Part shown: positions 2,361 to 25,245 of the stretch, in pieces
Numbering within the stretch: the stretch's first letter is position 1
Layout of the letters: each line of letters opens with the position of its first letter
DNA from: Nocardioides panacis
GTDB lineage: Bacteria; Actinomycetota; Actinomycetes; Propionibacteriales; Nocardioidaceae
Reading direction: 5' to 3'
Length of the DNA stretch: 64,000 nucleotides
NCBI RefSeq assembly: GCF_019039255.1
Contig: NZ_CP077062.1
Location: 2,294,001 to 2,358,000 of the forward strand
Notes under the pieces: model-generated
Seen by the model: only the letters and a program-made list of their open reading frames with translations
Told to the model about the DNA's origin: nothing
The model's database searches: none
Position numbers and translations under genes: made by a program

Positions 2361-3500
2361 TCAGCCGGCGGGCGGCAGGTAGCCGGTGGGCGCGTCGCCG
2401 AGGTCGACGATCGCCGCGACCGGGCCTCCCCCGTCGGGGCCCTGGTGGGCCGCCGAGACCGACACGAAGGCCGCCGGGTCACCGGTGACCGTCGCGGTCA
2501 CGCCGCCGACCGCGGACTTGATCTGCCGGTGCCAGTGCACGTCGGAGTCGTCGAGCATCGCGTTGCGCCGGCCGTGGACCTGGCCGTCCTGGCTGACCTC
2601 GCACTTGAGGAACACGTTGACCAGCCGGCCCTGCAGGTCCGAGGAGCGCGGGCGGTCCGGCAGCTCGAGCCCCGCGTCGGCGATCGCCTCCCAGATGCCG
2701 TCCGCGTCCAGGGCGTCGCGCATCACCGAGTGCCCGATCCGGTAGCGGCCGCCGATCCCCCGGGCGTTGCCGACCACCACGACCTGCGCCTGGTCGAGCT
2801 CGACGCCGCTCGAGCAGGACGCCACCGAGCTGAACAGCGACCGGTCGTGCATCACGTCCGCGTCCGTGGGCATCTCGATCTCGCCGAGCGCGACCGCGAC
2901 GCCGAGCGCCGTGCACCCGTTGGACAGGTCCATCGACTCGTGGGTGTGCTCGGTCCACACCGTCTTGCCGCGGCTCTTCGCGTCCCGGATCGTGTGGATG
3001 GTGAGCAGCGGGGTCTTGGTCTGGACGTAGTGCACGTCGGCGACGTCGGTGATCCCGGCCCGCTCCATCGCGGTCCGGACCGCGTCGGCGACCTTGGAGA
3101 CCATCGCGACCCGGCCGATGTCCTCGGGCAGCAGCACCTCGCTCATCGCGAAGCCCACCGTGAGCCGCGGCTCGTCGGTCTGCTCGACGGCATCGGCGGG
3201 CACGGTCGCGAAGATCGTCGCGTGCGGGCTGAGCACCCCGTCGGTGCCGCCGGACCAGACGATCGGCACCTGCTTGACGTCCTCGGCGCTGCGGGTCCCC
3301 TTGGTCACCAGCACCTCGCGGAACGCCCGGTCGGCGATGATCCGGGTGTAGTCGTTGACGCCGCCGTTCCCCTCGGTCTTGCCGATCACGGCCACCACCC
3401 GGTCGGCCTCCAGCACCCCGTCGTCGATCAGGTCGGCGAGGCCGCTCGCGTCGGAGACGGTCAGGATCGGGACCTTGCGTACTTCGATGGGCTCGGGCAT
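2361..3500 (-). CDS. Ring-opening amidohydrolase (cyanuric acid hydrolase/barbiturase family)
   Basis: 379 residues, the normal family length. Proteins of the AtzD/TrzD/barbiturase fold have three repeated domains, each giving a Ser-Lys pair around a trimeric active site; they open s-triazine or pyrimidine rings by hydrolysis. All three pairs can be placed: K41 in [14 protein letters not shown] with S83 in [13 protein letters not shown]162 in QTKTPLL with S231 in SCSSGVEL; K299 in VFLKCEVS with the Ser in [13 protein letters not shown] near 347-349. ATG with AAGGAGAG upstream. It is the last gene of an SDR - carbamate kinase - amidohydrolase operon, 12 bp after the kinase. Cyanurate and barbiturate specificity cannot be separated by eye; the nearby uracil-type permease and Mo hydroxylase favour a pyrimidine (inference). 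Confidence 0.88.
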
Positions 3501-3512
3501 CTGGCTCTCCTT

Positions 3513-4445
3513 CTAGGTGGGTACGACGACGGTGCCGGTCTCGCCGGCGACGGCGTCGAGGATGCGGTCCAGCGTGGTGATGACGGCGCGGGTGCCGCCC
3601 TGCTCGACGAAGCGGCAGACCGCCTCGACCTTGGGGCCCATGGACCCGCCGGCGAAGTGCCCCTCGGCGGCCAGCGCCCGCAGCCGGTGCACGGCGACGC
3701 GTCCGACCGGCTCCGCCTCGGGCGTGCCGAACCGCAGCACGGCGTGCGGCACGTCGGTCGCGACGACGAGCACGTCGACGTCCAGGGAGCGGGCGAGCAG
3801 CGCGGCCCCCAGGTCCTTGTCGATGACCGCCTCGACGCCGCGCAACCCGGACCCCTCACGGACCACCGGGATCCCACCGCCGCCGTTGGCGACCACGACG
3901 AACCCGGCCTCGACCAGCGCGTGCACCGCAGCGGCGTCCAGGATCTCGCGGGGCTCGGGCGAGGCGACGACCCGCCGCCAGCCCCGCTCGCCCCGGTCCT
4001 CCCAGGTCTCGCCGTGCTCGACCAGCACGGCGGCCTCGTCGGCGGGGAGGTAGCGCCCAATCGGCTTGCTGGGCCGGCGGAAGCCCGGGTCGTCCGGGTC
4101 GACGAGCGTCCGGGTGACGAGTGCCGCGCTCGGCCGCCGTACGCCCCGCTCGCGCAGCGCGTCGTCGAGGGCGTTCATCAGCACGAAGCCCAGCGTGGCC
4201 TGCGTCTGCGCGCCGCACCAGTCCAGCGGCACCGGGGGTACGACGGACGCGGCGATCTCGTTCTTCACCAGCAGGTTGCCGACCTGCGGGCCGTTGCCGT
4301 GGGTGACGACCACGTCGATGTCGCTGGCGACGAGCTCGGCCACGCTGCGCATGGCGACCTGGGCGGCGGCGATCTGCTCCTCGGGGCGTGCCCCGCCGTC
4401 GGGTCCGGTCATCGCGTTGCCGCCGAGGGCGAGCAGGACCCTCAT
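3513..4445 (-). CDS. arcC: Carbamate kinase
   Basis: 310 residues, full length for the family. Carries ALGGNAM at the N-terminus, THGNGPQVGNLL, GAQTQATLGF, the glycine-rich NGGGGIPV, IDKDLGAALLA, and the C-terminal FAGGSMGPKVEAV, all typical of ArcC/AllK kinases. Catalyses carbamoyl phosphate + ADP to ATP + carbamate, which decays to CO2 and ammonia. The start overlaps the upstream SDR stop (ATGA). There is no arginine deiminase or ornithine carbamoyltransferase nearby; the likely carbamoyl phosphate source is the FdrA/DUF1116/DUF2877 set at 21.7-25.2 kb (inference). Confidence 0.92.
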   Translation of the reverse strand: MRVLLALGGNAMTGPDGGARPEEQIAAAQVAMRSVAELVASDIDVVVTHGNGPQVGNLLVKNEIAASVVPPVPLDWCGAQTQATLGFVLMNALDDALRERGVRRPSAALVTRTLVDPDDPGFRRPSKPIGRYLPADEAAVLVEHGETWEDRGERGWRRVVASPEPREILDAAAVHALVEAGFVVVANGGGGIPVVREGSGLRGVEAVIDKDLGAALLARSLDVDVLVVATDVPHAVLRFGTPEAEPVGRVAVHRLRALAAEGHFAGGSMGPKVEAVCRFVEQGGTRAVITTLDRILDAVAGETGTVVVPT

Positions 4446-5164
4446 CGTCCACCTGCCACGCGCAGCGTCGCGCCGGTCGCGTAGGGGCAGGCGTCCGACA
4501 GCAGCCAGGCGATCGCCGCGGCCACCTCCTCCGGCTCGCCGACCCGCCCGACGGGAACCGCGCCGGCGACGCGATCGGGACGGCCGGGGTCACCGGCCGC
4601 GGCGTGGATGCCGGTGCGCACGATGCCCGGCGCCACGCCGTTGACCCGGATGCCGCGGGCCGCGACCTCCTGGGCGAGCCCGACGGTCAGCGCGTCGACA
4701 CCGGCCTTGGCTGCGGCGTAGTGGACGTACTCGTGCGGCGCCCCCAGGGTCGCGGCCGCCGAGGAGACGTTGACGATCGCGCCCCCGTCCGTCAGGTCCC
4801 GCACGGCTCGCCGCGCGACCAGGACCGCGCCGGTGAGGTTCACGTCGATGACCCGGCGGACCACCTCGACGGGGGTGTCGGCCAGGTCACCGAGGTGCAG
4901 CGTCGAGCCGGCGTTGTTGACCAGCCCGGTGACCCGGCCGACCCCGGCGGCGGCGTCGAACAGCGCGTCGACCTGGTCGGGGTCCGTCACGTCGGCCCGG
5001 ACGACCTCCACGCCGACACCGTTCGCCCGGGCCGTCGCGGCGGTCGCCTCCGCGGCGTCCCGGTCGGCGGCGTAGGACAGCACCAGGTCGTGACCGTCGC
5101 GGGCTAGCCGCAGGGCCGTGGCCGCCCCGATCCCCCGGCCGCCCCCGGTGATCACGGTCAGCAC
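4442..5164 (-). CDS. Short-chain dehydrogenase/reductase (SDR)
   Basis: 240 residues of a classical SDR: ITGGGRGIG (TGxxxGIG cofactor loop) at the N-terminus, NNAG, NVSS with the catalytic Ser, and the YxxxK pair in HYAAAKAG. The GTG at 5164 places the Rossmann strand at the very N-terminus, as usual for FabG-like enzymes. First clear gene of the operon with carbamate kinase and the ring-opening amidohydrolase, overlapping the kinase by 4 bp. It could reduce or oxidise an aldehyde or alcohol made after ring opening, but the substrate is not visible from sequence. Confidence 0.88.
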   Translation of the reverse strand: MLTVITGGGRGIGAATALRLARDGHDLVLSYAADRDAAEATAATARANGVGVEVVRADVTDPDQVDALFDAAAGVGRVTGLVNNAGSTLHLGDLADTPVEVVRRVIDVNLTGAVLVARRAVRDLTDGGAIVNVSSAAATLGAPHEYVHYAAAKAGVDALTVGLAQEVAARGIRVNGVAPGIVRTGIHAAAGDPGRPDRVAGAVPVGRVGEPEEVAAAIAWLLSDACPYATGATLRVAGGR

Positions 5165-5259
5165 CGGGGCCGGTCCACGTCGCCGCCGGTCGTCGCGGCC
5201 GCGAGGTCCGCGCGGCCCGGCAGGCCGTCGGTGCGCGGGCGGCGTACGACGAGGTCCAT
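5158..5259 (-). CDS. Possible 33-residue leader ORF or amidohydrolase remnant
   Basis: ATG at 5259, stop TGA at 5158-5160, overlapping the SDR start by 7 bp. The start of the peptide (MDLVVRRPRTDGLPGR) resembles the first strand of cytosine deaminase/hydantoinase-type amidohydrolases, but nothing follows. It may be a translated leader coupled to the SDR, a remnant of a lost amidohydrolase, or chance. No good Shine-Dalgarno sequence was seen. The rest of the 5260-5406 gap shows no other candidate gene. Confidence 0.25.
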   Translation of the reverse strand: MDLVVRRPRTDGLPGRADLAAATTGGDVDRPRC

Positions 5260-5406
5260 CGCGCGAGACTACGACGCGTCCCCCGGACGTGCACGCACAT
5301 CCGCGCCGCGCGCACCACGCGCGGCACGCCGCGTCCGCCCCGCACGGCGCTCGTCCCGCATACTGGGGCCCGACAGAAGCATCCGGACCAGCTCGGGGGG
5401 ACGCAC

Positions 5407-6501: not shown

Positions 6502-8421
6502 CTAGCCCACCCAGTCCACCTCGGCGCTGGTCGCCCCGGCGGCGAGGGTCGCGTAGCCCGGGCCGCGGTCGAAGAACGGCTGCGGGCCGCGACCGTCGCA
6601 GCGTGCCGCGCGCAGGGCGTCGCTGGCGGCCTCGTCGACGACCGGTGCCTGCGGCGGACCGCCGACGACCACGCCGTAGTCCTCCCGGGCACCCTCGACC
6701 GACACCTTGCCCCACAGCACGTCGCGGGCCACCTCGTCGTACGGCCGGTCCAGCGGGTCGCCCCAGCCGCCCCCGCCCGTCGTACGGATCCGGATGGTCT
6801 CGCCGGCCCGCACGGGCTCGGCGTCGGCCAGCGCGTCGACCACCCGCTCGTGCGGGCCGCCGGCTTCGATGGTCACCGAGAACGGCCGCCCGGCCCGGCC
6901 GCCCTTGACGCCCCAGCAGGACAGGATCGACCGGTCCGCGATGGACATGAAGTGCGCGTCGGCGAGCATCCGGATGTGCTTCTCGTAGCCCAGCCCGCCG
7001 CGGTGCCGGCCCGCGCCGCCGCTGTCGACGGCCAGCCCGAGCCGCTCGACGACGAACGGGAACCGCGACTCGGAGAACTCCGAGGGCAGGTTCCGGGAGT
7101 CCGGGACCACGTGGATGGTGTCCTCGCCGTCGGCGTAGTAGCGGCCGCCGGAGCCGCCGCCGAGCACCTCGCGCATGAGGTACGGCGCCCCGTCGAGGTC
7201 GTCGCCGTACACCCCCGTGTAGCGGATCGTCTCCTGGTCCGCCGGCATCCGGCCGTCGACCGCCTTGGCGACCACCCCGGCGAGCACGCCGAGCAGCCGC
7301 AGGATCACGAACGTGCGGGCGTTGGTGGGCGCCGGGAACACCGGGGTGAGCAGCGTGCCGGGCGGCGGGAACCGCATCTCGATCAGCGGCACGACGCCCT
7401 CGTTGACGTCCAGCTCGGCCATCCGCTCGGGGCTGTCCGCGAGGTTGCGCAGCACCGGCGCCAGCCACTTCTTGAGGAAGTTGCCGTCCGCGTAGTCGCC
7501 GCAGTGGTTGATCGGGCCCTTGGCCTGCGGGGCGGTGCCGTGGAAGTCCAGCACCAGCCGCTCGCCGCCCGGGTCGTCGGCGGCGGTGCGGGTCATCGTG
7601 ATCCGCTGCGTGTGCAGCCGCGGCGCGTCCACGCCGTCGTGCTCGGCGTAGTCCTCCCAGACGTACTCCCCCACCGGGATCTTGGAGAGGATCTCGCGCC
7701 GGAACGTCTCGGTCGTCTTGTCCAGGATCGCGTCGAAGCAGGTCTCCACCGTGGCGGTGCCGTAGCGCGCGAACAGCTCGGCCATCCGGCGGGCGCCCAT
7801 CAGGCAGGCCGAGCACTCGGCGTCCAGGTCGGCGGCCAGCGACTCGGGCATCCGCGAGTTGCGGGTCATGATCTTCAGCGCCGCCTCGTTGGGCACGCCG
7901 GCGTCCCACAGCCGGATCGGCGGCACCATCAGGCCCTCCTCGAAGACCGAGGTGGCGCTCGAGGGCATCGAGCCGGGTACGGCGCCGCCGATGTCGTCGT
8001 GGTGCCCGAACGCCTGCACGAACGCCACGACCACGCCGTCGTGGAACACCGGCGCCGTCACGCACAGGTCGGGCAGGTGCCCGATCCCGCCCTCGGAGAG
8101 GTAGACGTCGTTGTGGAAGAACACGTCGCCGGGCCTCATCGTGTCGATCGGGTAGTCCCGCACCACCGGGTGCACCAGCGCGGAGTACGAGCGGCCGGTG
8201 AGCTTGCGCAGCCGCCGGTCGTGGATCCCGGCCCGGTAGTCGTGGGCGTCGCGGATCATCGGGCTGCGCGACGTACGCCCGATGGCGGTCTCCACCTCCT
8301 GCTCGACGGAGGCGAGGTACCCCTCGACGATCTCCACGAGCACCGGGTCCGCCGCCCCCCTCCCCGAGTTGTCAGGCGGTGGGTCGGTCGGGGCCGCTTC
8401 AGCGCCTGACAACTCGGTCAT
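6502..8421 (-). CDS. hyuB: Hydantoinase B/oxoprolinase family protein
   Basis: About 639 residues, usual for HyuB. Recognisable segments are MRPGDVFFHNDVYL...GIGHLPDL near residues 90-115, the AFGHHDDIGG region, and the C-terminal TTGGGGWGDPLDRP. HyuB is the partner of HyuA in ATP-dependent cleavage of cyclic amides (N-methylhydantoin amidohydrolase, 5-oxoprolinase, caprolactamase). The start overlaps the hyuA stop (ATGA). Last gene of the long minus-strand catabolic operon, converging on the SGNH gene. The substrate cannot be deduced from sequence. Confidence 0.9.
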   Translation of the reverse strand: MTELSGAEAAPTDPPPDNSGRGAADPVLVEIVEGYLASVEQEVETAIGRTSRSPMIRDAHDYRAGIHDRRLRKLTGRSYSALVHPVVRDYPIDTMRPGDVFFHNDVYLSEGGIGHLPDLCVTAPVFHDGVVVAFVQAFGHHDDIGGAVPGSMPSSATSVFEEGLMVPPIRLWDAGVPNEAALKIMTRNSRMPESLAADLDAECSACLMGARRMAELFARYGTATVETCFDAILDKTTETFRREILSKIPVGEYVWEDYAEHDGVDAPRLHTQRITMTRTAADDPGGERLVLDFHGTAPQAKGPINHCGDYADGNFLKKWLAPVLRNLADSPERMAELDVNEGVVPLIEMRFPPPGTLLTPVFPAPTNARTFVILRLLGVLAGVVAKAVDGRMPADQETIRYTGVYGDDLDGAPYLMREVLGGGSGGRYYADGEDTIHVVPDSRNLPSEFSESRFPFVVERLGLAVDSGGAGRHRGGLGYEKHIRMLADAHFMSIADRSILSCWGVKGGRAGRPFSVTIEAGGPHERVVDALADAEPVRAGETIRIRTTGGGGWGDPLDRPYDEVARDVLWGKVSVEGAREDYGVVVGGPPQAPVVDEAASDALRAARCDGRGPQPFFDRGPGYATLAAGATSAEVDWVG

Positions 8422-10502
8422 GAGGTGCTCCTTCGGATCACGAGGTTGCCCCACCCGTCGACCCTCGCGGTGAAGCCCGGGTGCAGGGGCACGGTCGAGG
8501 AGAACTCCTCGAGCACGGCGGGCCCCTCCACGACGTCGCCGGCGCCGAGCCGGGCCCGGTCGTAGACGGTCGCCTCCACCCAGTCGTCGAAGAACACCGG
8601 CCGCGTCCCGGTCCTCGCCGCGCCCGCACCCGGGCCGGCGGCGACCTCGCGCAGCGACGGCTTGCGGATCGGGCCGACCCCGGTGACCCGCAGGTTCACC
8701 CACTCGACCTGCTGGCGCGGGTCGTCGCGGAAGTCGTAGCCGTAGAGCGCGCGGTGCTCGTCGTGGAACCGGTCCCCGACCGCGGCCACCAGCTCACCGG
8801 TCACCGGGCCGGCCGGGACGTCGACCCGCACCTCGTAGGCCTGCCCGAAGTAGCGCAGGTCCGCGGTGCGCACGAACACCCGCTCCGGCTCCGCGAACCC
8901 CTCGCGCGCCAGCGCCGCGTCGGCCCGGCCGCCCAGCGCGTCGTACACCCCCTGCACGTGGGCCACGTCGAGCGTGTCGGCGCGGACCACGGAGGTCTGC
9001 ACGTAGTCGTTGCGTACGTCGACCGTGAGCAGGCCGTAGGCCGAGAGGTTGCCGGGGTTGAGCGGCACCAGCACGCCGTCGAGGCCGAGGATGTCGACCA
9101 GCCGGCAGGCGAGCAGCGAGCCCGAGCCGCCGAACGTGACCATCGTGAAGTCGCGGACGTCCAGGCCGCGCTTGACGGTGACCTGCCGCAGCGCGTTGGC
9201 CTGGTTCCACGCGGAGATCTCCAGCACGCCCGTCGCGCAGCGCTCGCGGGTGAGGTCGAGCCGCTTCGCCAGCGCGTCCATGCCGCCGGCGGCCAGGTCC
9301 ACGTCGAGCGGCACCTCCCCGCCGAGCAGGTGCGGCGGGATGCGGCCGAGCAGCACGTGCGCGTCGGTGATCGTCGGCTCGGTGCCGCCGTGCCCGTAGC
9401 AGATCGGGCCCGGGTCGGCGCCCGCGCTCTGCGGCCCCACCTTGAGCGTGCCCTCCCGGGAGACCCAGGCGATCGAGCCGCCGCCGGCGCCGACGGTGAC
9501 CACGTCGATCATCGGGATCTTGCTGGGGTAGGCGCCGATCGTGCCCTCGGTGGTGAGCGCCGGCCGGCCGTCGATCACGACGGTCACGTCGGTCGACGTA
9601 CCCCCGCCGTCGCAGGTGACCACCTGCGGGAAGCCGGCCGCCTGCGCCACCACCGCCGCACCCAGCGCGCCCGCCGCCGGCCCGGACAGCACCGTGGTGA
9701 TCGGCTGGTGCACGACCTCCTCGGCGGACAGCACGCCGCCGTTCGACTTCATCACGTAGAACGGGACCGCATGCCCGCCCCCGGGTCGGCCGCCGGACAG
9801 GTCGGCGAGGTGGCCGGCGATGTTGGCGACGTAGGAGCGGATGTTCGGCTTGACGGCGGCGTCCACCAGGGTGGTGACGGCGCGCTCGTACTCGCGGTAC
9901 TCCCGCAGCACCTCGCTGCTGATCGACACGGTCGCGGCCGGGTGCTCGCGGGCCAGCACGTCGCGCATCGCGCGCTCGTGCGTGTCGTCGACGTACGAGT
10001 GCAGGAAGCACACGCCGATGCTGTCGATGCCGGCGTCGCGGAAGAACCGGGCCGCGGCGACGGCGGTCTCCTCGTCGAAGGGCCGGATCTCCTCGCCGGT
10101 GACCGACAGCCGGCCGCCGACGGTGCGGACCCGGTGGGCCGGCACGATCCGGTCGGGCTTCACCCAGAAGTAGGAGTTGCCGTAGCCGTCCGGGACCGAC
10201 TGCCGGGCGATCTCCAGGAGGAACTCGTAGCCCTCGGTGGTGACGAACCCGAGGTTCTGCACCTTGCCCTCGAGCAGCTTGTTGGTCGCCACCGTGGTGC
10301 CGTGGCTGACCGCGGTCACCGCGCTCCCGTCGAGGCCGAGCTCGTCGAGGAGCTTGTGCACGCCGGTCATGAACCCCTCGGCCGGGTCGCTCGGCGTGGA
10401 CGGCGTCTTGGTGACGACCAGCGCGCCGCTCTCCTCGTCGACCGCGACGACGTCGGTGAACGTGCCGCCGGTGTCGATCCCGATCCGGATCCGGCGGGTC
10501 AC
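8418..10502 (-). CDS. hyuA: Hydantoinase A/oxoprolinase family protein
   Basis: About 694 residues. The N-terminus RIGIDTGGTFTDVVAVD is the phosphate-binding motif of the ASKHA-like HyuA fold; VLSGPAAGALGA and CDGGGTSTDVTVV supply the remaining ATP-binding loops. It binds and phosphorylates the substrate during ATP-dependent opening of a cyclic amide, working with HyuB. GTG start overlapping the amidase stop (GTGA at 10499-10502). The open frame extends much further upstream, but that part lies wholly inside the amidase gene, so the GTG is preferred. Confidence 0.92.
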   Translation of the reverse strand: MTRRIRIGIDTGGTFTDVVAVDEESGALVVTKTPSTPSDPAEGFMTGVHKLLDELGLDGSAVTAVSHGTTVATNKLLEGKVQNLGFVTTEGYEFLLEIARQSVPDGYGNSYFWVKPDRIVPAHRVRTVGGRLSVTGEEIRPFDEETAVAAARFFRDAGIDSIGVCFLHSYVDDTHERAMRDVLAREHPAATVSISSEVLREYREYERAVTTLVDAAVKPNIRSYVANIAGHLADLSGGRPGGGHAVPFYVMKSNGGVLSAEEVVHQPITTVLSGPAAGALGAAVVAQAAGFPQVVTCDGGGTSTDVTVVIDGRPALTTEGTIGAYPSKIPMIDVVTVGAGGGSIAWVSREGTLKVGPQSAGADPGPICYGHGGTEPTITDAHVLLGRIPPHLLGGEVPLDVDLAAGGMDALAKRLDLTRERCATGVLEISAWNQANALRQVTVKRGLDVRDFTMVTFGGSGSLLACRLVDILGLDGVLVPLNPGNLSAYGLLTVDVRNDYVQTSVVRADTLDVAHVQGVYDALGGRADAALAREGFAEPERVFVRTADLRYFGQAYEVRVDVPAGPVTGELVAAVGDRFHDEHRALYGYDFRDDPRQQVEWVNLRVTGVGPIRKPSLREVAAGPGAGAARTGTRPVFFDDWVEATVYDRARLGAGDVVEGPAVLEEFSSTVPLHPGFTARVDGWGNLVIRRSTS

Positions 10503-11923
10503 GGCGTCGCCCCGACCTGCGGGCGGCGCTCGCCGACGCGGGTGGCCTGCTCGAAGGCGTGCGCGATCTCCAGCAGCCGCCGCTCGCCGCGCACCGGCCC
10601 GACCAGCTGGAGGCCGACCGGCCAGCCCTCCGGGGTGAACCCGGCCGGGACGGAGATCGCCGGGCAGCCGGTGACGGTGATGAGGTACGCCGACCGCATC
10701 CAGTCCAGGTAGGTCGCCTGGGCCTCGCCGTTGATCTCGGAGGGGTACTCCAGGTCGGCGCTGAACGGCGGCACCTGGCTCACCGGGAGCGCCAGGACGT
10801 CGTACGTCTCGAAGAACGCGCGCATCCGGTCGTGGATCGAGGTGAGCTGCTGGTAGGCCCGGGCGACGTCGCCGCCGGTCAGGTCGGCGCCGAGCAGGAT
10901 GTTGTCCTTGAGCGACTGCTTGAAGCCGTCGGGCCGCTTCTCCAGCAGGGTCCGGAACCGGGCCTGGAACAGCCACGCGCGCAGCGTCCGGAACGCCGCG
11001 TCGGCGCTGTGCAGCACCGGGTGCGCGTCCTCGACGGTGGCACCGGCGGCCTCGAGCACCTGCGCCTGCCGGCCGATCACGTCGGCGACCGAGTGGTCGA
11101 CGGTGAACGCGCCGCCGAGGTCGATGGAGAGCGCGACGCGTACGCCGGTCAGGTCGCCGACCAGCGGGGGCGCGAACGCCGAGCCGGGCGACTCCAGCGA
11201 CAGCGGGGCCCGGCGCGAGGGCCCGGCGATCACCGACAGCAGGAACGCGAGGTCCTCGACGCTGCGTGCCATCGGCCCGCCGACCGAGGTGAGCTCCCAG
11301 CCGTTGGTGGTCGGCCAGCCCGGGACCCGCCCGACGCTGGGGCGCAGGCCCACGACGTTGTTGAAGGAGGCGGGGTTGCGCAGCGAGCCGCCCATGTCGC
11401 TGCCGTCGGCGAGCGGCACCATCCCGCTGGCCAGGGCCGCCGCCGCACCGCCGCTCGAGCCGCCGGCGGACCGGGTCAGGTCGTAGGGGTTGCGGGTGGT
11501 GCCGAAGATCGGGTTGAAGGTGTGCGACCCGGCCGCCCACTCGGGCACGTTGGTGCGCCCGATCGGTACGACGCCGGCAGCCCGGATCCGCTCCACGAGA
11601 AGCTCGTCGCGCTTGGGCACGTAGTCGGCGCGCAACGGCGACCCGAACGTCGTGCGCCAGCCGGCCACCTCGTGGGTGTCCTTGAACGCGTGCGGCAGAC
11701 CGTGGAGCGGCCCGACCTGCTCCCCGCGGGCGAGCCGCTCGTCGGCCTCCGCGGCACCGGTCCGGGCGCGCTCCTCGTCGAGCGACACGACCGCGTTGAC
11801 CGCCGGGTTGACCTCGGCGATCCGGGCCAGGTGCAGCTCCATCAGCTCCCGGGCGGAGATCTCCTTGACGGCGGCCGCGGCCGCCATCGCCCGCGCGGAG
11901 GAGTACACGTCGAGGTCAGCCAT
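10499..11923 (-). CDS. Amidase signature family protein
   Basis: About 474 residues. The amidase signature core is intact: AFKDTHEVAG with the catalytic Lys, then TRSAGGSSGGAAAALASG and GSDMGGSLRNPASF with the Ser-Ser pair. The family includes malonamidase, ureidomalonase-type enzymes, AtzE/AtzF and allophanate hydrolase. ATG at 11923 overlaps the coxG stop by 8 bp (ATGGCTGA). Within this operon it is a good candidate for hydrolysing a linear amide released after ring opening, such as malonamate (inference). Confidence 0.9.
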   Translation of the reverse strand: MADLDVYSSARAMAAAAAVKEISARELMELHLARIAEVNPAVNAVVSLDEERARTGAAEADERLARGEQVGPLHGLPHAFKDTHEVAGWRTTFGSPLRADYVPKRDELLVERIRAAGVVPIGRTNVPEWAAGSHTFNPIFGTTRNPYDLTRSAGGSSGGAAAALASGMVPLADGSDMGGSLRNPASFNNVVGLRPSVGRVPGWPTTNGWELTSVGGPMARSVEDLAFLLSVIAGPSRRAPLSLESPGSAFAPPLVGDLTGVRVALSIDLGGAFTVDHSVADVIGRQAQVLEAAGATVEDAHPVLHSADAAFRTLRAWLFQARFRTLLEKRPDGFKQSLKDNILLGADLTGGDVARAYQQLTSIHDRMRAFFETYDVLALPVSQVPPFSADLEYPSEINGEAQATYLDWMRSAYLITVTGCPAISVPAGFTPEGWPVGLQLVGPVRGERRLLEIAHAFEQATRVGERRPQVGATP

Positions 11924-12629
11924 GCCGGCGCCTCGAGATCCAGGCACCCACCACGGCCCCCGCGAGCGCGGCCGCCGCCCCGACCAGCACCCCCTGCGCG
12001 AACGCCCCGCCCGGCTGCGCCGTCACGACGTTCCCCTTCGGCGCCGTGTAGACGGTCCCGGCGGCGGGCGACGGCCGGGTCGACGGCGGGGCGGCGGTGG
12101 ATGCGTCCGGCGGGAGGCGCGAAGCGCCGGATGGTCTCGCCGCCTCGTCGGCGGCGGCCACCCCGGCGGAGTCCGCGGCCGCGGCGCCAGCACCCGTCAT
12201 GACGTTCTCCACGTTGCGGAAGAACTCCTCCGCCATCCGCTTCGACACCCCCACCAGCATCCGCTGGCCGACGCCGCCGATCATCCCGCCGACCACGGCG
12301 TCCGCGTCGTAGGTCACCGACGCCCCGCCGGCGGCGGACTCCTCCAGCGTGACGAGCACGTCGGCCCCGATCGTGCCCGCGGCCCCGGCGCCCTGCGCGT
12401 GCATCCGGAACGAGCCGGGCTGCTGCTGGTCGGTGAGCCGCACCTGTCCGTCGTACACACCCTTGATCGAGCCCACCCCGGCCGCGACCGTCAGCGTGTA
12501 GGCATCGTCGCCGAGCGCCTCGAGCCGCTGGCAGCCGGGGATGCAGCGCACCAGCACGGCCGGGTCGTTCAGGGCCTGCCAGACGACCTCGGGGTCGGCG
12601 GCGAACTGGGCGTTGCCGATGATCTTCAT
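11916..12629 (-). CDS. coxG: CoxG-like SRPBCC protein, membrane-anchored
   Basis: About 237 residues. The N-terminal ~145 form an SRPBCC/CoxG domain: MKIIGNAQFAADPEVVWQAL, then CIPGCQRLEALGDDAY. A Ser/Pro/Ala-rich linker follows, then one C-terminal transmembrane helix (VLVGAAAALAGAVVGAWI) ending in RRRHG. CoxG recruits CO dehydrogenase-type Mo enzymes to the membrane or delivers electrons to quinones. The start overlaps the coxL stop (ATGA), so it is co-translated with the Mo hydroxylase large subunit. Confidence 0.9.
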   Translation of the reverse strand: MKIIGNAQFAADPEVVWQALNDPAVLVRCIPGCQRLEALGDDAYTLTVAAGVGSIKGVYDGQVRLTDQQQPGSFRMHAQGAGAAGTIGADVLVTLEESAAGGASVTYDADAVVGGMIGGVGQRMLVGVSKRMAEEFFRNVENVMTGAGAAAADSAGVAAADEAARPSGASRLPPDASTAAPPSTRPSPAAGTVYTAPKGNVVTAQPGGAFAQGVLVGAAAALAGAVVGAWISRRRHG

Positions 12630-15013: not shown

Positions 15014-15534
15014 GCCTGCGTCGCCTTGGTCGGGGTCGCGTCACCGGCCGGGCTCCCCGCGAGCAGCTCCGCCGCGCGACCGACCGCGGCGACGATGTTG
15101 ACGTACCCCGTGCAGCGGCAGAGATTGCCGGAGATCGCCTCGCGGGCCTCGGCGGGGGTGGGGTCGGGGTGGGTCTGCAGGAACGCCGCGACGGTGGTCA
15201 CGAAGCCGGGCGTGCAGAAGCCGCACTGCAGGGCGTGGCACTCGTGGAACGCCTGCTGCACCGGCCCCATGCCGCCGTCGGCCGAGCGCAGACCCTCGGT
15301 GGTGGTGATCGCCGCGCCGTCCAGCGACACCGCGAACAGCAGGCAGGACCGCACCGGGGCACCGTCGACCAGGACGGTGCAGGCGCCGCAGACGCCGTGC
15401 TCGCAGCCGACGTGGGTGCCGGTCAGCCGCAGGTCGTGGCGCAGGGCGTCGGAGAGCAGCCGGCGCGGCGGCACGTCGAGGTCGTACGGCGCCCCGTTGA
15501 CGGTGAACGACACGCGCACCACGTCGTCGCTCAT
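15010..15534 (-). CDS. coxS: Molybdenum hydroxylase 2Fe-2S small subunit
   Basis: About 174 residues. The plant-type ferredoxin cluster is in GCEHGVCGACTVLVDG with a further Cys in RSCLLFA; the second cluster is in QCGFCTPGFV and NLCRCTGY. This is the full eight-Cys set of xanthine dehydrogenase-family small subunits. It passes electrons from Mo to FAD. ATG at 15534 overlaps the coxM stop (ATGA). A C-terminal Ala/Thr-rich tail extends slightly beyond the usual end. Confidence 0.95.
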   Translation of the reverse strand: MSDDVVRVSFTVNGAPYDLDVPPRRLLSDALRHDLRLTGTHVGCEHGVCGACTVLVDGAPVRSCLLFAVSLDGAAITTTEGLRSADGGMGPVQQAFHECHALQCGFCTPGFVTTVAAFLQTHPDPTPAEAREAISGNLCRCTGYVNIVAAVGRAAELLAGSPAGDATPTKATQA

Positions 15535-16374
15535 GCCGCGCCCACCTCCGCCCGCGCCTCGCGCACCGCTCGCGCCACCAGCACGTGCGCGAGGTGGCGA
15601 CGGTAGTCGGCGCTGGCGTGGATGTCGCCCTCCGGATCGATCGTGTCGTCGACCAGGACGCGCGCGGCGTCCGGGTCGAGGGCGGAACCGTCGTAGGCGG
15701 CAGAGAGGTCGACCAGCACCGGCCCGTCCCCCATGCTCACCAGCGCCACCCGGACCGTGTCCGGGCCGACGACGGCACCCACGCCGCAGACGGCGTAGTC
15801 CCCCTGCCGGCGGGCCACCTCGACGAACGCCGATCCGCTGCCCGGCGGGGGCCGCCGGAACGTCGCGGAGACGGCCAGCTCGCCGGCCCGCGCGGCGCAC
15901 TCCATCGGCCCGGTGAAGAACGCCGCCGCCGGGACCTCGCGGGACCTCTCGACGCTGCGCAGCGTCACCGACCCGTCCAGCAGGAGCAGCACCGCGGGCA
16001 TCTCGGCGGCCGGGTCGGCGTGCACCAGGCTGCCGACGGTCGTGCCCCGGTTGCGGATCGTCGGGTGCGCCACCTGGCGCAGCGCCCGGCGCAGCAGCGG
16101 CACGGCGTCGTACGCCGCGGCGTCGTGCTCCACCCGGCTGTGCCGCGCCAGCGCCCCCACGTGCACGGCGTCGGCGTCCACCCGCACGCCGTCCAGGCCC
16201 GGCACGTGGTTGACGTCGACGAGGTGCTCGGGCGCCGAGAGCCGCATCGACATCAGCGGCACCAGGCTCTGCCCGCCCGCGAGCACCTTGCCGCGCTCCC
16301 CCAGCCCGGCGAGCACGTCGAGGGCCTCGTCCAGGCTGCGCGGCCGGTGGTAGGTGAACGGCGAGGGCTTCCAC
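15531..16374 (-). CDS. coxM: Molybdenum hydroxylase FAD subunit; start displaced by a 1-nt indel
   Basis: FAD-binding subunit (xanthine dehydrogenase FAD/CO dehydrogenase C-terminal fold). GGQSLVPLMSMRLSAPEHLVD and TIRNRGTTVGSLVHADPAAE are the two flavin-binding motifs. Family proteins begin M-K-P-x-P-F-x-Y-x-R-P. Here that segment reads WKPSPFTYHRPRSLDEAL in frame but has no start codon; the upstream GTG at 16372-16374 is one base out of phase (GTGGAAG where GTGAAG is expected). Either one G is inserted near 16371 or translation begins at the internal GTG at 16316, losing ~20 residues. First Mo-enzyme gene after the permease, 20 bp downstream of its stop. Confidence 0.85.
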
Positions 16375-16394: not shown

Positions 16395-17837
16395 TCACGC
16401 CCGGTGGGCCCCGTCGCCGGGCTCCGGTGAGGCGGGCTCGTCCTGGTGCAGGCCGGTCCGCCCGACCGCCATCATCGCGCCGTCGTCCCGCAGCTCCGGC
16501 TGGGCGACGGCCCGCGCCAGGTGGTAGCCGACCAGCGTCACGATGGTGCCGAACGCGATGCCGGACAGCGAGAAGTTGTCGGTGATCACCAGCGAGGTGT
16601 TGCCGATCGCGATGATGATGCCGGCGGCGACGGGCACCAGGTTGACGGGGTTGGCGAAGTCGACCCCGTTCTCCTTCCAGATCTTGGCGCCGAGCAGGCC
16701 GATCATGCCGTAGAGCACGACGGTGATGCCGCCGAGCACCCCGCCCGGGGTGGCCGACACGATCGCCCCGAACTTCGGGCAGAGGCCGAACAGGATCGCG
16801 ACGACCGCGGCCACGTAGTAGGCGGCCGTGGAGTACACCCGGGTCGCCGCCATCACGCCGATGTTCTCGGCGTACGTCGTGGTCGGCGAGCCACCGACGG
16901 CCGACGCGAGGATGGTGCCGAAGCCGTCGGCGGCGATCGCCCGGCCCATGACCGGGTCGAGGTCGCGGTCGGTCATCTCCGCGACGGCCTTGACGTGACC
17001 AGTGTTCTCCGCGATCAGAGCGATCACGGCCGGCAGCACGAGCAGCGCGAAGGTGACGCTGAAGGACGGCGCGTGCCACCCGGTGACGCCGTGGGCCAGG
17101 TCGCTGTGCGGCGGGAAGCCGACCCAGTCGGCCGCCTTCACGCCCGCCCAGCTCAGCCGGTCGTGGGTGTCGACCTTGCCGGTGCCCGCGTTGTAGGCGG
17201 TGATCGGGCCGAACACCGTGTCGAACAGCCAGGACACGAGGTAGCCGAAGACCAGCCCGAGGAAGATCGCGATCCGGCTCATGAACCCGCGCAGGCCCAC
17301 CGCCATCAGGATCACGACGGTCATCGTGAGCAGCGCGACCCACTGGTCCTGGGGCCAGTAGATGTCGGCCACCACCGGCGCGAGGTTGAAGCCGATCAGC
17401 ATCACCACCGCACCGGTGACCACCGGCGGCAGCAGGCGGTGCAGCACCCCGGAGCCCAGGAAGTGGATCAGCACGCCGACCAGCAGCAGCACGACGCCGG
17501 CGACCAGGATCGCGCCCGTCACGTCGGCGGAGTCCCCGCCCTGGGCCCGGATCGCCGCCACGCCGCCGACGAAGGAGGCCGAGGTGCCCAGGTAGCTGGG
17601 CACCTTGCCCTGCACGATGAGCAGGAACGCGATCGTCGCGATGCCGCTCATCATGATCGCGAGCTGCGGGTTCAGCCCCATGATCAGCGGGAAGACGAAG
17701 GTGGCGCCGAACATCGCGACCACGTGCTGGGCCCCGAGGCCGACCGTCCGGCCCCACGAGAGCCGTTCGTCGGGAGCCACGGCCGCGCCCGGAGGCGGGG
17801 TCTTGCCGTCGTAGACGAGTTTCCAACCAAGAGCCAT
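16395..17837 (-). CDS. NCS2 uracil/xanthine permease
   Basis: About 480 residues with 12-14 hydrophobic segments. The NCS2 signature is present as [16 protein letters not shown] near residue 310, and LIGFNLAPV and [10 protein letters not shown] are typical of UraA-like members. Imports uracil, xanthine or a related base by proton symport. ATG at 17837 chosen because GGGAGG lies 7 nt upstream and the preceding residues are low-complexity Arg/Gly. First gene of the minus-strand operon running into the Mo hydroxylase, which suggests its substrate is the starting compound of that pathway (inference). Confidence 0.92.
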
Positions 17838-18107
17838 GTCGGGCCTCCCAGCTCGGGCACCGCTCCGCCGACCGGTGCGACCAGTGCGACCCACGACGTG
17901 GACCGCGGACCCCCGAGGAGTCGGGTGACACTGTGCACCAACTGTCCCGCGCACGGTGGGAAGCGCGCCACACCCGGCGGGGCCCCTCGCAGGTCACGAA
18001 ACGGCCCAGAAATCGGTCGGGGGATGAAATATGGGGTGAACCGGCGGTGATCAGTTACTGTCACAGCCGACGACAACCGTTGAAACCACCGGGATTGGGG
18101 TGTCAAC
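17838..18107. promoter_or_regulatory. Divergent intergenic region between permease and ABC importer
   Basis: 270 bp separating the two divergent transport operons; it must hold both promoters. On the plus strand, TGGGGT (18096-18101) sits 6 nt before the GTG at 18108, a weak match to a leaderless -10. A/T-richer sequence around 18020-18080 is unusual for this DNA and is the likely control region. No clear operator palindrome and no small gene were found. Confidence 0.4.
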
Positions 18108-20572: not shown

Positions 20573-20624
20573 CGCCCGCACCTCCACCCGCACACCCGAC
20601 GCACGCCCACCCAAAGGGGATCTG

Positions 20625-21629: not shown

Positions 21630-21645
21630 CACCCCGAGAACCTCC

Positions 21646-21680
21646 ACGAGGCCCGCGTGCGCTCTGCACGCGGGCCTCGT
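21646..21680 (+). terminator. Terminator after the ABC importer operon
   Basis: A perfect 15-bp GC-rich stem, ACGAGGCCCGCGTGC with its complement, and a 5-nt loop (GCTCT), starting 17 bp after the binding-protein stop. No T tract follows, which is common in actinobacterial terminators. It separates the importer from the DUF2877 operon. Confidence 0.8.
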
Positions 21681-21688
21681 CGGCGGTC

Positions 21689-21694
21689 TAGGGT
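21689..21694 (+). promoter_or_regulatory. -10 element for a leaderless DUF2877-fdrA-DUF1116 mRNA
   Basis: TAGGGT lies 7 nt before the ATG at 21702 with no Shine-Dalgarno sequence between, just after the terminator hairpin. This is the pattern of leaderless actinobacterial transcripts and would give the allHFG-like genes a promoter of their own. Confidence 0.6.
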
Positions 21695-21701
21695 CGGGCC
21701 C

Positions 21702-22409
21702 ATGACCTCCCGCGTCCTCCCCGCCGCAGCGTCCTGCCTGCTGGCCGGGCTGCTCGACGAGGGGGCCGACCTGGTCGAGGTGGCCCGCACCCGGGTCAGC
21801 GTGCACTACGAGACGGGCCGCGCCGACGTCCCGGTGCTCTGCGTGTGCACGCCCGACGCGGTCCGGCTGCCCGGGTCGGTGGTGACGTCCGTCGTACCCA
21901 CGCAGGCGGTGCGGGCCCGGCACGGCGCCCTGGTCGGCGCCTCCGGAACGTGGCGGGTCGGCCGGTGGTGGCGGCCGCCCCGGCCCCGCGGGCTGACCGC
22001 GCCGGCGCTGCCGCCCGCGGCTCCTGGCGTCGACGTCCCCGGCACCGTCCGGCCGCACGACCTGCTCGGCGCGGGTCCCGGGCTGACGCCCAGCGGCGAC
22101 GACGTGCTCGCCGGGCTGCTCGTCGCCGCGCACGCGGTCGACGACCCGCGGCTGGCGGCCTGGCAGGCGCAGACCCGCGCCGCCCTGCGCGACCGGGCCA
22201 CCACCGCGGTCTCCCGCGGCCTGCTCGCCCACGCGCTGGACGGCTGGGCCACCCCGGAGCTCGCCGGCTTCGTCACCGCCGCCTGCGCCGGCGACGTCGG
22301 CACCGCGCTGCCCGTCCTGCTCGCCGTCGGGCACACCTCCGGTGCCGCCCTGGCCGCCGGCGCGCTGCACGTGCTCGGCACGTCGTCCGCCCTGAGAGGA
22401 GCCGCATGA
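21702..22409 (+). CDS. DUF2877 protein, AllH-like oxamate carbamoyltransferase subunit
   Basis: About 235 residues. The family hallmark GPGLTPSGDDVLAG lies near residues 124-137. E. coli YlbF (AllH) of this family acts with FdrA (AllF) and YlbE (AllG) in oxamate carbamoyltransferase, which phosphorolyses oxalurate to oxamate and carbamoyl phosphate. The three genes are together here, overlapping by 4 bp each. ATG at 21702 is supported by the leaderless -10; the frame extends upstream only into the terminator hairpin. Substrate identity is inferred from family and context. Confidence 0.85.
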   Translation: MTSRVLPAAASCLLAGLLDEGADLVEVARTRVSVHYETGRADVPVLCVCTPDAVRLPGSVVTSVVPTQAVRARHGALVGASGTWRVGRWWRPPRPRGLTAPALPPAAPGVDVPGTVRPHDLLGAGPGLTPSGDDVLAGLLVAAHAVDDPRLAAWQAQTRAALRDRATTAVSRGLLAHALDGWATPELAGFVTAACAGDVGTALPVLLAVGHTSGAALAAGALHVLGTSSALRGAA

Positions 22410-23860
22410 GGTCCGTCCAGCTGCGCCGAGGCACGTACGTCGACTCGGTGACCCTGATGCAGGTCAGCCGCCGCGTCGCCGCCCTCGACGGCGTCACGTC
22501 CGCGCTGGTCGCGATGGCCACCGAGCTCAACCTCGACCTGGCCGCCGGCATGGGCTTCGAGGTGCCGCCGGCCTCCCCCAACGAGCTGCTCGTGGCCGTC
22601 GAGGCCGTCTCCGTCGACGCGGCCCTCGCGGAGGTCGACCTGGCCCTCCTCGAGGCGTCCCGCCCGGCCCCGTCGGGCTTCGGCAGCGCCCCCGCCCCGG
22701 TGACCGTCCGCTCGGCCGCGGCCCGCTCGGGGGCCACCGTCGCCCTCGTGTCCACCCCCGGCCAGTGGGCCTTCGCCGACGCCGTGGACGCCCTCGACGC
22801 CGGCCTGCTGACCATGGTCTTCAGCGACAACGTGCCCCTCGAGCAGGAGGTCGCCCTCAAGGAGCACGCCGCACGCGCCGGGCTGCTGGTGATGGGGCCC
22901 GACTGCGGCACCGCGGTCGTCGGCGGTGTCGGACTGGGGTTCGCCAACGTCGTGCGTCCCGGACCGGTCGGGATAGTGGCGGCCTCCGGGACCGGCGCCC
23001 AGCACCTGATGGCGCTGCTCGACGGCGCCGGGGTCGGCGTCTCGCACTGCCTGGGCGTCGGCGGCCGGGACCTGTCGGCCGAGGTCGCCGGCCGCTCCAC
23101 GCTGCGGGCGCTGGACCTGCTGGACGCCGACGAGGCCACCGAGCTGGTCGTGGTGGTCTCCAAGCCGCCGGCCCCCGAGGTCGCCGAGGCCGTGCGGGCA
23201 CGGGCCGCGAGCCTGGGCACGCCGGTGCTGTTCGGCCTGCTCGGCGCCGGCCGGCCCGACCTGACCGAGACCGCGGCCGCGGTGGTGCAGGCCGCCGGGG
23301 GCCGCTGGGCCGCCCCCGAGCACTGGGCTGGCCAGGTCCCCGCCGGCCGGCCGGGTGGCGCGCTGCGTGGGCTGTTCGTCGGAGGCACCCTCTGCGACGA
23401 GGCGATGCTGGTCGCGTCGGCCGCGCTCGGCCGGGTCAGCTCCAACATCCCGCTGGACCCGGCCTGGGCCGTGGGCGACGACCTCGCCTCCGACGGGCAC
23501 ACGATGCTCGACTTCGGCGACGACCGGCTGACCCGCGGGCGCCCGCACCCGATGATCGACGGCGCCCTGCGGGTCGAGCGGCTGCGGGCCGAGACCGAGG
23601 ACCCCACCACGGGCGTGCTGCTCCTCGACGTGGTCCTGGGGCTCGGCTCGGCCGACGACCCCGCCGCCGAGCTGGTGCCCGCCCTGCACGCGGCCCGCGC
23701 CGCCGGCGTCCCCGTCGTGGTCTCGGTGACCGGGACCCGCGACGACCCCCAGGGGCTGCGCGGGCAGGTCGCCGCGCTGCACGGCGCCGGCGCCTGGGTG
23801 CACCTGTCCAACGCGGCCGCCGCCCGGTGCGCCCTCGACCTGCTCGGAGACCCGGCGTGA
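22406..23860 (+). CDS. fdrA: FdrA family protein, AllF-like carbamoyltransferase subunit
   Basis: About 484 residues. Resembles FdrA/acyl-CoA synthetase (ADP-forming)-like proteins: YVDSVTLMQVSRRVA near the N-terminus, MVFSDNVPLEQEVALKEHA, LLVMGPDCGTA, IVAASGTGAQHLM and the C-terminal DFGDDRLTRGRPHPMID. MGPDCGT and the GASGTG-type loop are the nucleotide/phosphate-binding regions of the succinyl-CoA synthetase alpha-like fold. It lacks roughly the last 40 residues found in the E. coli protein. ATG overlaps the DUF2877 stop (ATGA) and its stop overlaps the next GTG. Expected to form carbamoyl phosphate with its two neighbours. Confidence 0.88.
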   Translation: MRSVQLRRGTYVDSVTLMQVSRRVAALDGVTSALVAMATELNLDLAAGMGFEVPPASPNELLVAVEAVSVDAALAEVDLALLEASRPAPSGFGSAPAPVTVRSAAARSGATVALVSTPGQWAFADAVDALDAGLLTMVFSDNVPLEQEVALKEHAARAGLLVMGPDCGTAVVGGVGLGFANVVRPGPVGIVAASGTGAQHLMALLDGAGVGVSHCLGVGGRDLSAEVAGRSTLRALDLLDADEATELVVVVSKPPAPEVAEAVRARAASLGTPVLFGLLGAGRPDLTETAAAVVQAAGGRWAAPEHWAGQVPAGRPGGALRGLFVGGTLCDEAMLVASAALGRVSSNIPLDPAWAVGDDLASDGHTMLDFGDDRLTRGRPHPMIDGALRVERLRAETEDPTTGVLLLDVVLGLGSADDPAAELVPALHAARAAGVPVVVSVTGTRDDPQGLRGQVAALHGAGAWVHLSNAAAARCALDLLGDPA

Positions 23861-25245
23861 ACCTCTCGACTCCCCCGGCCGTCGTCACCGCCGGCGCCTC
23901 CCTGCTCGCCGACGCCCTGCGCGCCCAGGCCGTCGACGTCTCCGAGGTGCTCTGGCAGCCACCGGCCGGCGACCCCGCGGCCCTGGCCGCCGTGATGGGC
24001 GACCCGCGCCGGGTGCCGGCCAACGCGCGCGCGCTGACGGCAATGCTGGCCGCGGAGGCGCACCTGGTCGACGTAGTCCCGGCGGCGGAGGCGCTCGGCC
24101 TCGGCCCCGGGGAGTTCCTGCACGCCGGTCCGCCGGTGGAGTGGGACCGGGCGTCCGGGCCGATGCGCGGCGCGCTGGTCGGGGCGATGCTGTTCGAGGG
24201 CCTGGCCGCGACACCGGAGGACGCCGAGCGCCGGCTCGCCGCCGGCGACGGGGTGAGCTGGGCGCCGTGCCACAGCCGGGGCGCGGTCGGGCCGATGGCG
24301 GGCCTGATCACCCCGTCGATGTGGGTGTTCTGCCTGCGCGACCCGAGCACCGGGCACGAGTCGTGGTGCTCGCTGAACGAGGGCCTCGGCAAGGTGCTCC
24401 GCTACGGCGCCTACGGCCCCGAGGTGATCGAGCGGCTGCACTGGATGACCGCCGTGCTCGGGCCGATGCTGCAGCACGCCGTGCGTGCCGGGGACCCGGT
24501 CGACGTGAAGGCGATCGTCGCCCAGATGATCCAGATGGGCGACGAGGGGCACAACCGCAACCGGGCCGGGACGCTGATGTTCCTGCGCGAGGTGCTGCCG
24601 GCGATGATCGACTCGGACTTCGCCCAGGCCGACGTCGCCGCCGCGGTGCGGTTCGTCTCCGGCAACGACCACTTCTTCCTGAACCTCGTGATGCCCGCCT
24701 GCAAGCTCCAGGCCCGGGCCGCCGCGGAGATCCCCGGCTCCACGGTGGTGACCGTGATGGCGCGCAACGGCACCGACTTCGGCATCCAGACCGCCGGCAC
24801 CGGCGACACCTGGTTCACCGCTCCCGCGAACACCCCGGAGGGGCTGTTCCTGGGGTCCTACGGCCCCGACGACGCCAACCCCGACATCGGCGACTCCGCG
24901 ATCACCGAGACGGCCGGCATCGGCGGTCTGGCGATGGCGACGGCCCCCGCGATCGTCCGGTTCGTGGGCGGCTCGGTGCCCGACGCCCTGGCCACCACCC
25001 AGCGGATGTACGACATCACCGTCGGCGAGAACCCCGCCTACGGCATCCCGATCCTGGAGTTCCGGGGAACGCCCACCGGCATCGACGTGACCGCCGTCGT
25101 GCGCAGCGGCGTGCTCCCGCAGATCAACACCGGGATGGCCGGCCGGGTCGCCGGCACCGGCCAGGTCGGCGCCGGCCTCGTCACACCCCCGATGCCCTGC
25201 TTCACCCAGGCCCTGGAGGCCCTGGCGGCCCGGTCCGCCCGGTGA
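23857..25245 (+). CDS. DUF1116 protein, AllG-like carbamoyltransferase subunit
   Basis: About 462 residues, the full family length. Characteristic segments are HAGPPVEWDRASGPMRGALVG, IVAQMIQMGDEGHNRNRAGT, VSGNDHFFLNL and VMARNGTDFGIQ. E. coli YlbE (AllG) belongs here and is a subunit of oxamate carbamoyltransferase. GTG at 23857 overlaps the fdrA stop. Last gene of the three-gene unit; carbamoyl phosphate made here could feed the carbamate kinase at 3.5-4.4 kb. Confidence 0.9.
   Translation: MNLSTPPAVVTAGASLLADALRAQAVDVSEVLWQPPAGDPAALAAVMGDPRRVPANARALTAMLAAEAHLVDVVPAAEALGLGPGEFLHAGPPVEWDRASGPMRGALVGAMLFEGLAATPEDAERRLAAGDGVSWAPCHSRGAVGPMAGLITPSMWVFCLRDPSTGHESWCSLNEGLGKVLRYGAYGPEVIERLHWMTAVLGPMLQHAVRAGDPVDVKAIVAQMIQMGDEGHNRNRAGTLMFLREVLPAMIDSDFAQADVAAAVRFVSGNDHFFLNLVMPACKLQARAAAEIPGSTVVTVMARNGTDFGIQTAGTGDTWFTAPANTPEGLFLGSYGPDDANPDIGDSAITETAGIGGLAMATAPAIVRFVGGSVPDALATTQRMYDITVGENPAYGIPILEFRGTPTGIDVTAVVRSGVLPQINTGMAGRVAGTGQVGAGLVTPPMPCFTQALEALAARSAR

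Follow-up and report, generated by a model that had tools for sequence, protein, structure and literature searches.

In published accounts, barbiturase is described as rare and as belonging to a pathway with urea as an end product (PMC3758960, PMC4051656), AllFGH has been assayed as an oxamic transcarbamylase (PMC11326118), and certain nitrifiers carry clusters for triuret and biuret in which AllFGH and a carbamate kinase lie beside ureide-hydrolysing genes (PMC12625717). Here, an island of Nocardioides panacis is described that carries a barbiturase, a carbamate kinase and a complete set of AllFGH subunits. It lies in a stretch of 64,000 nt (the window), corresponding to positions 2294001-2358000 of the 4.9 Mb single-contig genome (NZ_CP077062.1). 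From its gene content and the distribution of its genes among relatives, the island is likely to serve oxidative pyrimidine breakdown with a branch to carbamoyl phosphate, in which AllFGH would phosphorolyse ureidomalonate to malonamate and carbamoyl phosphate. The gene set is real and recurrent, and joins known families in a combination for which no published description was found; among the papers listed by the literature search, which missed most subscription journals, none links barbiturase to AllFGH, carbamate kinase, ureidomalonate, oxamate carbamoyltransferase, DUF1116 or FdrA.

Gene layout and predicted pathway

Gene identities were assigned with Pfam and NCBIfam profile searches, which recovered every gene named in the initial annotation of this DNA. 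The minus strand carries, in order, the permease, CoxM, CoxS, CoxL, CoxG, amidase, HyuA and HyuB, then the SDR, carbamate kinase and barbiturase, with an unrelated plus strand open reading frame (ORF) interrupting this arm between HyuB and the SDR. The plus strand carries the ABC importer followed by AllH, AllF and AllG. Four-base overlaps occur at AllH/AllF, AllF/AllG, kinase/SDR and CoxL/CoxS, and the kinase and barbiturase genes are 12 bases apart. Start positions are approximate for HyuA, HyuB, CoxG, CoxS and the permease, and that of AllH (21702) was read from the sequence. The features are as follows:

2361..3500, minus strand: barbiturase by signature (group VI ring-opening amidohydrolase; PF09663, 479 bits)
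3513..4445, minus strand: carbamate kinase (PF00696, AA_kinase)
4442..5164, minus strand: SDR oxidoreductase, accessory (PF13561)
6502..8415 (start approximate), minus strand: HyuB-type subunit (PF02538, 453 bits)
8418..10500 (start approximate), minus strand: HyuA-type subunit (PF05378, PF01968, PF19278)
10499..11947, minus strand: amidase, candidate malonamate amidohydrolase or ureidomalonase (PF01425, 361 bits)
11916..12620 (start approximate), minus strand: CoxG-like protein (PF06240), in ORF 11916-15044
12626..15013, minus strand: molybdenum (Mo) hydroxylase large subunit, CoxL-like (PF02738, PF20256, PF01315)
15010..15530 (start approximate), minus strand: Mo hydroxylase small FeS subunit, CoxS-like (PF01799, PF00111)
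15531..16316, minus strand: Mo hydroxylase medium FAD subunit, CoxM-like (PF00941, PF03450)
16395..17954 (longest frame, true start probably later), minus strand: NCS2-type nucleobase permease (PF00860)
18108-21629, plus strand: OpuAC-type ABC importer, between the permease arm and AllH
21702..22409, plus strand: AllH-like subunit, DUF2877 (PF11392, 75 bits over a cut-off of 25), in the longer frame 21657-22409
22406..23860, plus strand: AllF-like subunit of the FdrA family (Ligase_CoA domain; 234 bits to the solved FdrA 3dmy)
23857..25245, plus strand: AllG-like subunit, DUF1116 (PF06545, 310 bits)

In the predicted route, uracil or a related pyrimidine would be imported by the nucleobase permease and oxidised to barbiturate by the CoxMSL Mo hydroxylase. 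The barbiturase, whose signature is present in the window protein, would open barbiturate to ureidomalonate, the reaction known for its family. AllFGH, with phosphate, would then convert ureidomalonate to malonamate and carbamoyl phosphate, a step suggested by the chemistry of AllFGH on oxalurate and by the linkage described below, and carbamate kinase would turn carbamoyl phosphate into ATP, CO2 and NH3. Malonamate may be converted to malonate by the amidase (in relatives, by a nitrilase-family hydrolase), and a CoA transferase and decarboxylase-like protein of relatives may carry malonate on to acetyl-CoA. The AllFGH step would stand in for the ureidomalonase reaction by which the known pathway releases urea. 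The core of this route had been proposed in the initial annotation and is retained, with a recurrent barbiturase, kinase and AllFGH set and with tested oxalurate-forming genes that do not track AllG; its cyanurate option, the ABC importer and a core role for the SDR have been dropped.

Co-occurrence of barbiturase and AllG

The initial annotation had staked its proposal on the ring opener occurring together with DUF1116 (AllG) in other genomes, and this was found. Among 296 genomes of the class Actinomycetes (the class sample), PF09663 is present in 67 and AllG in 72. True barbiturases were taken to be PF09663 matches above 450 bits, plus that of G209, which is split in two; a 25-residue fragment in G023 was not counted, and the sole AllG of G051 (202 bits) was counted as AllG. 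On this basis AllG occurs in 60 of 62 barbiturase genomes and in 12 of 234 others. By genus, 29 have both genes, two have barbiturase alone, nine have AllG alone and 75 have neither, and genomes with both are found in 12 families. In a sample from other classes of the phylum, AllG was searched in 23 genomes with PF09663 and in 57 that gave no PF09663 match (chosen by running number), and was present in 19 of 20 barbiturase genomes, none of the three with low-scoring PF09663 and five of the 57. The linkage is far beyond chance. A second set, of 80 loci from named genomes, was also compared, with the AllG search covering 48 of them (50 chosen loci less L063 and L072); at least four named genomes share match places with genomes of the class sample (G126, G183, G019 and G075), and therefore the two sets are not independent.

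The ring opener

Aligned with the solved barbiturase 5hwe, the window protein reaches 681 bits over a length of 368 aa, whereas no solved cyanuric acid hydrolase gives more than 327 bits. According to PMC3758960, five residues distinguish the group VI barbiturases from cyanuric acid hydrolases, namely Asn195, His321, Lys325, Val345 and Ser/Ala346 in AtzD numbering, and all five have their counterparts in the window protein (N194, H324, K328, V348 and S349). The combination NHKVS or NHKVA was present in 92 of the 95 sequences checked (the 80 named relatives, three controls and, from the class sample, ten islands, L149 and the window), the three exceptions being the cyanuric-acid-hydrolase-like controls (L150-L152). 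By this signature, the ring opener is a barbiturase and not a cyanurate enzyme. It is also matched by the NCBIfam equivalog NF052395 'cyanuric acid amidohydrolase' (474 bits, cut-off 360), a label that we think is wrong for this protein. That match favours a cyanuric acid hydrolase whose product, carboxybiuret, would be the substrate of AllFGH, an option raised in the initial annotation. Against it stand the five specificity residues, a 5hwe score twice that of any solved cyanuric acid hydrolase, and the lack of AllG in all seven genomes with a best PF09663 match of 291-439 bits (the split match of G209 aside); the cyanurate route is almost certainly incorrect and was discarded. A barbiturase with the group VI signature also occurs near glutamine-synthetase-like and P450 genes in a genome without AllG (L149, in G206), where it possibly has another role.

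Carbamate kinase and conserved gene order

The window kinase matches NF009007 at 305 bits (cut-off 266) and the equivalog TIGR00746 at 332 bits, just under its cut-off of 358. Relatives were searched with the window protein rather than a family model, so that absence of a kinase means absence of a match to the window kinase, and the sole barbiturase-free background consisted of the 12 genomes with AllG but no barbiturase. In 54 of the 62 class genomes the kinase and the barbiturase are same-strand neighbours, with 29-216 bases separating the matched stretches, and in 73 of the 80 named loci the two lie no more than 2.5 kb apart. Elsewhere in the class it is about 4 kb from AllG (G221) or on the AllG contig (G007), is represented only by distant relatives on other contigs (G241, G131 and G206), or gives no match (G200, G209 and G014).

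This distribution bears on a variant of the pathway, in which AllFGH would act on ureidomalonate and the carbamoyl phosphate would pass mainly to the biosynthesis of arginine and pyrimidines rather than to ATP. In its favour, G200, G209 and G598 carry AllG and barbiturase and gave no kinase match; ATP formation is therefore not universal, and in these genomes carbamoyl phosphate may be used in another way. Set against the 54 class genomes and 73 named loci with a neighbouring kinase, the variant is distinctly unlikely as a general account.

The order of the genes is also conserved. In ten class islands from five families, AllF and AllG face an arm of permease, CoxMSL, CoxG, HyuAB, kinase and barbiturase, except that G241 has no kinase there and the permease was undetected in G102, G183 and G019; AllH could be identified in some of the ten only. 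In all 12 loci examined outside the class, a single strand carries barbiturase, AllF and AllG, with the kinase between barbiturase and AllFG in ten (not L161 or L162) and CoxMSL following on the same strand in seven (the stretches of L156, L160, L163 and L164 end too early). The fullest same-strand strings are L155 and L159, both with barbiturase, permease, kinase, AllF, AllG, CoxMSL, CoxG, amidase and HyuA; that of L159 runs barbiturase, amidohydrolase, permease-like, kinase, AllH (shown by Pfam), AllF, AllG, CoxM, CoxS, CoxL, CoxG, amidase and HyuA. In L162, the Mo hydroxylase beside barbiturase and AllFG is only 28-45% identical to that of the window. Contig ends or the limit of the 10 kb flank truncate many of the 80 named loci, so that counts among them, such as a window-type amidase in at least 17 of 80, are lower bounds.

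AllFGH and the supply of oxalurate

The three adjacent subunits AllH, AllF and AllG make up the complete oxamic transcarbamylase set, with AllF scoring 378 bits against NF004760, less than the cut-off of 433. Three trees were built from chosen sequences, and in these the barbiturase-linked AllG proteins form one clade (support 99/98 in the third tree, of 30), which includes the window AllG; the characterised E. coli AllG falls outside it. Of the 60 class genomes that have both barbiturase and AllG, the trees sample 34, chiefly those with the highest scores, and do not include G051 and G020. Most AllG proteins of barbiturase-free genomes lie outside the clade, the exceptions being G108 (80% complete, no barbiturase) and G023, with its barbiturase fragment, both of which the third tree omits.

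If AllFGH acted on oxalurate as in E. coli, derived from purines or from five-membered ureides like parabanate, the island would be a mixed purine-pyrimidine one. The assayed oxamic transcarbamylase activity speaks for this, as do PucR-type regulators in related islands and AllD-like matches, under the cut-off, in 17 of 73 genomes, among which there might be an unusual oxalurate maker. However, allantoinase barely tracks AllG (odds ratio 2.1 in the class sample, versus 555 for barbiturase) and is absent over its cut-off from 22 genomes with AllG and barbiturase, including that of the window, where only matches under the cut-off were seen. The oxalurate-making AllD was over its cut-off in none of the 73 genomes, a search in which one of 14 controls was over the cut-off and four gave a match (E. 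coli among those four), and the window genome gave no AllD match. These searches gave no support to purines as the source of the AllFGH substrate, and with an AllG clade separate from that of E. coli, a role on oxalurate is very improbable.

Mo hydroxylase, HyuAB and downstream genes

Three Mo hydroxylase subunits are encoded, and CoxL carries the motif PYRGAGR, which we take to mark form II Mo hydroxylases. CoxL matches NF040766 at 1500 bits, an exception model with the NCBIfam name CO dehydrogenase group 5. CoxMSL is a candidate uracil/thymine dehydrogenase, and the NCBIfam names cyanuric acid amidohydrolase (2361-3500) and aerobic CO dehydrogenase (12626-15013) are probably misleading. The best model for the permease is RutG (345 bits, under its cut-off). 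The nearest solved relative of HyuA is 7hk5, 'N-methylhydantoinase' (480 bits).

Of the 80 named loci, 45 carry CoA transferase III and 20 an AccD/AccA-like carboxyltransferase; the models closest to these proteins, each scoring under its cut-off, describe dicarboxylate CoA transferases, subunits of acetyl-CoA carboxylase and, at a weak level, malonate decarboxylase. Such neighbours are consistent with malonate as the carbon product. In L114 (3148-5941) and L039 (4340-7296), CoA transferase III and an AccD/AccA-like protein lie near the barbiturase, possibly as a module from malonate to acetyl-CoA; neither protein was found in the window.

Amidase, urease and the release of urea

In the place of the amidase, directly after CoxG, four of the ten class islands have a CN_hydrolase gene (G102, G183, G241 and G158), and in G124 one lies about 1.4 kb further on. 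A window-type amidase is found in G045 and G219 (69-70% identity), a 30% relative in G019, and neither gene in G030 and G275. That the same slot is occupied by two unrelated amide hydrolases is consistent with conversion of malonamate to malonate.

The classical route offers another explanation, in which the amidase or CN_hydrolase is a ureidomalonase, yielding malonate and urea, and AllFGH and the kinase serve some other substrate and only happen to lie close by. Urea and malonate are the end products of the known pathway (PMC3758960). Window and Rhodococcus amidases share the subfamily NF005686 (481 and 713 bits, cut-off 465), a window-type amidase occurs in 12 of 20 named loci extending as far as CoxG, and in L009 it lies directly beside barbiturase and kinase; for these reasons the window amidase could itself be a ureidomalonase. 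On the other hand, the amidase is patchy among the class islands (two at 69-70% and one 30% relative) compared with AllG in 60 of 62 genomes, ten of 12 loci outside the class have barbiturase, kinase and AllFG together on one strand, and a quick tree places the Rhodococcus amidases in a separate, long-branched clade. In addition, the window genome gave no urease match in a search for the large subunit (urea amidolyase was not searched). Taken together, the classical route is unlikely for this island.

A different arrangement is seen in the Rhodococcus group, where four loci (L030, L039, L051 and L060) have the amidase directly after the barbiturase and no kinase there; AllG was found in none, and urease in all, of the four genomes, and one (G298) has a kinase relative of 44% identity elsewhere. 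The amidase gene directly after barbiturase in R. erythropolis (L039, 11233-12726) is a candidate ureidomalonase gene, and ureidomalonase has reportedly been purified from this species. The group is a single lineage, so this contrast represents one evolutionary event. Among 73 genomes with barbiturase and AllG, urease occurs in 21; the search used the large subunit in 80 chosen genomes, including 13 of the 19 outside the class, and weak matches of about 23 bits in G154 and G632 were left uncounted. The same argument is made in PMC11326118 for the majority of urease-negative enteric bacteria, one strain excepted.

Several observations, besides the amidase data, the kinase-less genomes and the AllD-like matches given above, weigh against phosphorolysis of ureidomalonate. 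Barbiturase occurs without AllG in G206 (100% complete), G014 (72%) and, outside the class, G519 (94%), and in G241 and G131 the only kinase match is 45-50% identical and lies on another contig. HyuAB (6502-10500 in the window), present in ten of ten class islands, has no place in the scheme, and enzymes of this family commonly spend ATP, which bears on any net gain of ATP. Finally, the Rhodococcus-type contrast rests on one lineage.

Loci with a possible different ring opener

Outside the class, five genomes have AllG without PF09663 (G355, G369, G373, G403 and G382). In three of these (G355, 86% complete, G369 and G373), the AllG is sister to the barbiturase clade and a PF04199 gene, a candidate unrelated ring opener, lies in the same gene string:

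L166, 5482-6279: PF04199 gene
L167, 4854-5660: PF04199 gene
L168, 7523-8380: PF04199 gene

L166 and L167 have permease, AllF, AllG and the PF04199 gene on short contigs. In L168 the PF04199 gene is followed on the same strand by AllG, AllF, HyuB, HyuA, CoxL, CoxS and CoxM, with CoxG further on (L171). The other PF04199 proteins share 81% identity with the L168 protein, and the motif HVGTHLD is common to all three. Among 172 sequences examined, the gene occurs in three, none with barbiturase. Solved relatives include kynurenine formamidases and isatin hydrolases, at weak scores. These strings look like cases in which the ring opener was replaced and AllFGH kept.

Other AllFG loci are arranged differently. 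G403 has a kinase and an isochorismatase beside AllFGH, and in L133 and L169, AllFG and carbamate kinase lie beside an isochorismatase-type hydrolase, with no barbiturase and outside the barbiturase-linked clade; these two clusters probably represent another ureide pathway, like those of the nitrifiers. We moderately favour a wider view, in which AllFGH are general acylurea phosphorylases and the clade described here is a ureidomalonate carbamoyltransferase of a widespread actinobacterial route, with the barbiturase sometimes replaced by a PF04199 hydrolase.

Other genes of the island

The ABC importer was listed among the island genes in the initial annotation. Its binding protein belongs to the OpuAC family, of glycine-betaine type, with a score under the cut-off of the OsmF model, and no window-type binding protein was found in the ten class islands or in 12 further loci, some of them incomplete; it was rejected as the substrate importer and is probably not part of the pathway. 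It occupies the place, between the permease arm and AllH, where relatives carry a PucR regulator, and a PucR search of the window gave no match. The SDR gene, also listed there, is present as annotated, and a core role was rejected on its occurrence in only 14 of 80 related loci, one match being only 36% identical. The plus strand ORF at 5407-6480 was rejected as a pathway gene, with a weak GDSL match under cut-off and no counterpart in the 80 related loci. ARAGORN called a tRNA-Ser (gct) at 4036-4107, antisense within the carbamate kinase gene, which is probably false.

Comparison with known systems

If correct, the barbiturase-AllFGH route would be carried by about one fifth of the sampled class genomes (60 of 296) and would recover carbamoyl nitrogen and ATP without urease. 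AllFGH, for which a published assay was found for E. coli only, would then have two substrates. The pathway would be masked by its automated names (cyanuric acid amidohydrolase, CO dehydrogenase and FdrA-type acyl-CoA synthetase), and the gene set would supply candidate genes for uracil oxidation and for ureidomalonase.

The oxidative pyrimidine locus of R. erythropolis (L039) resembles the window in having barbiturase, an NCS2-type permease, a CoxMSL-type Mo hydroxylase and HyuA, but also has PucR regulators, CoA transferase III and a carboxyltransferase, which the window does not. Where the Rhodococcus-group loci combine an amidase beside the barbiturase with urease, and have neither an adjacent kinase nor AllG, the window has the kinase and AllFGH and no urease match. 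The AllFGH and AllK genes of E. coli show the same three families adjacent to one another with a carbamate kinase in the cluster, as in the window, although identities to the window proteins are 43% for AllG, 39% for AllF and 39% for the kinase, the AllG clades are separate, and the E. coli neighbours are AllC, AllD and AllE instead of barbiturase and Cox genes. The nitrifier clusters share AllFGH and kinase with the window, and have isochorismatase-type hydrolases (PMC12625717) where the window has a barbiturase.

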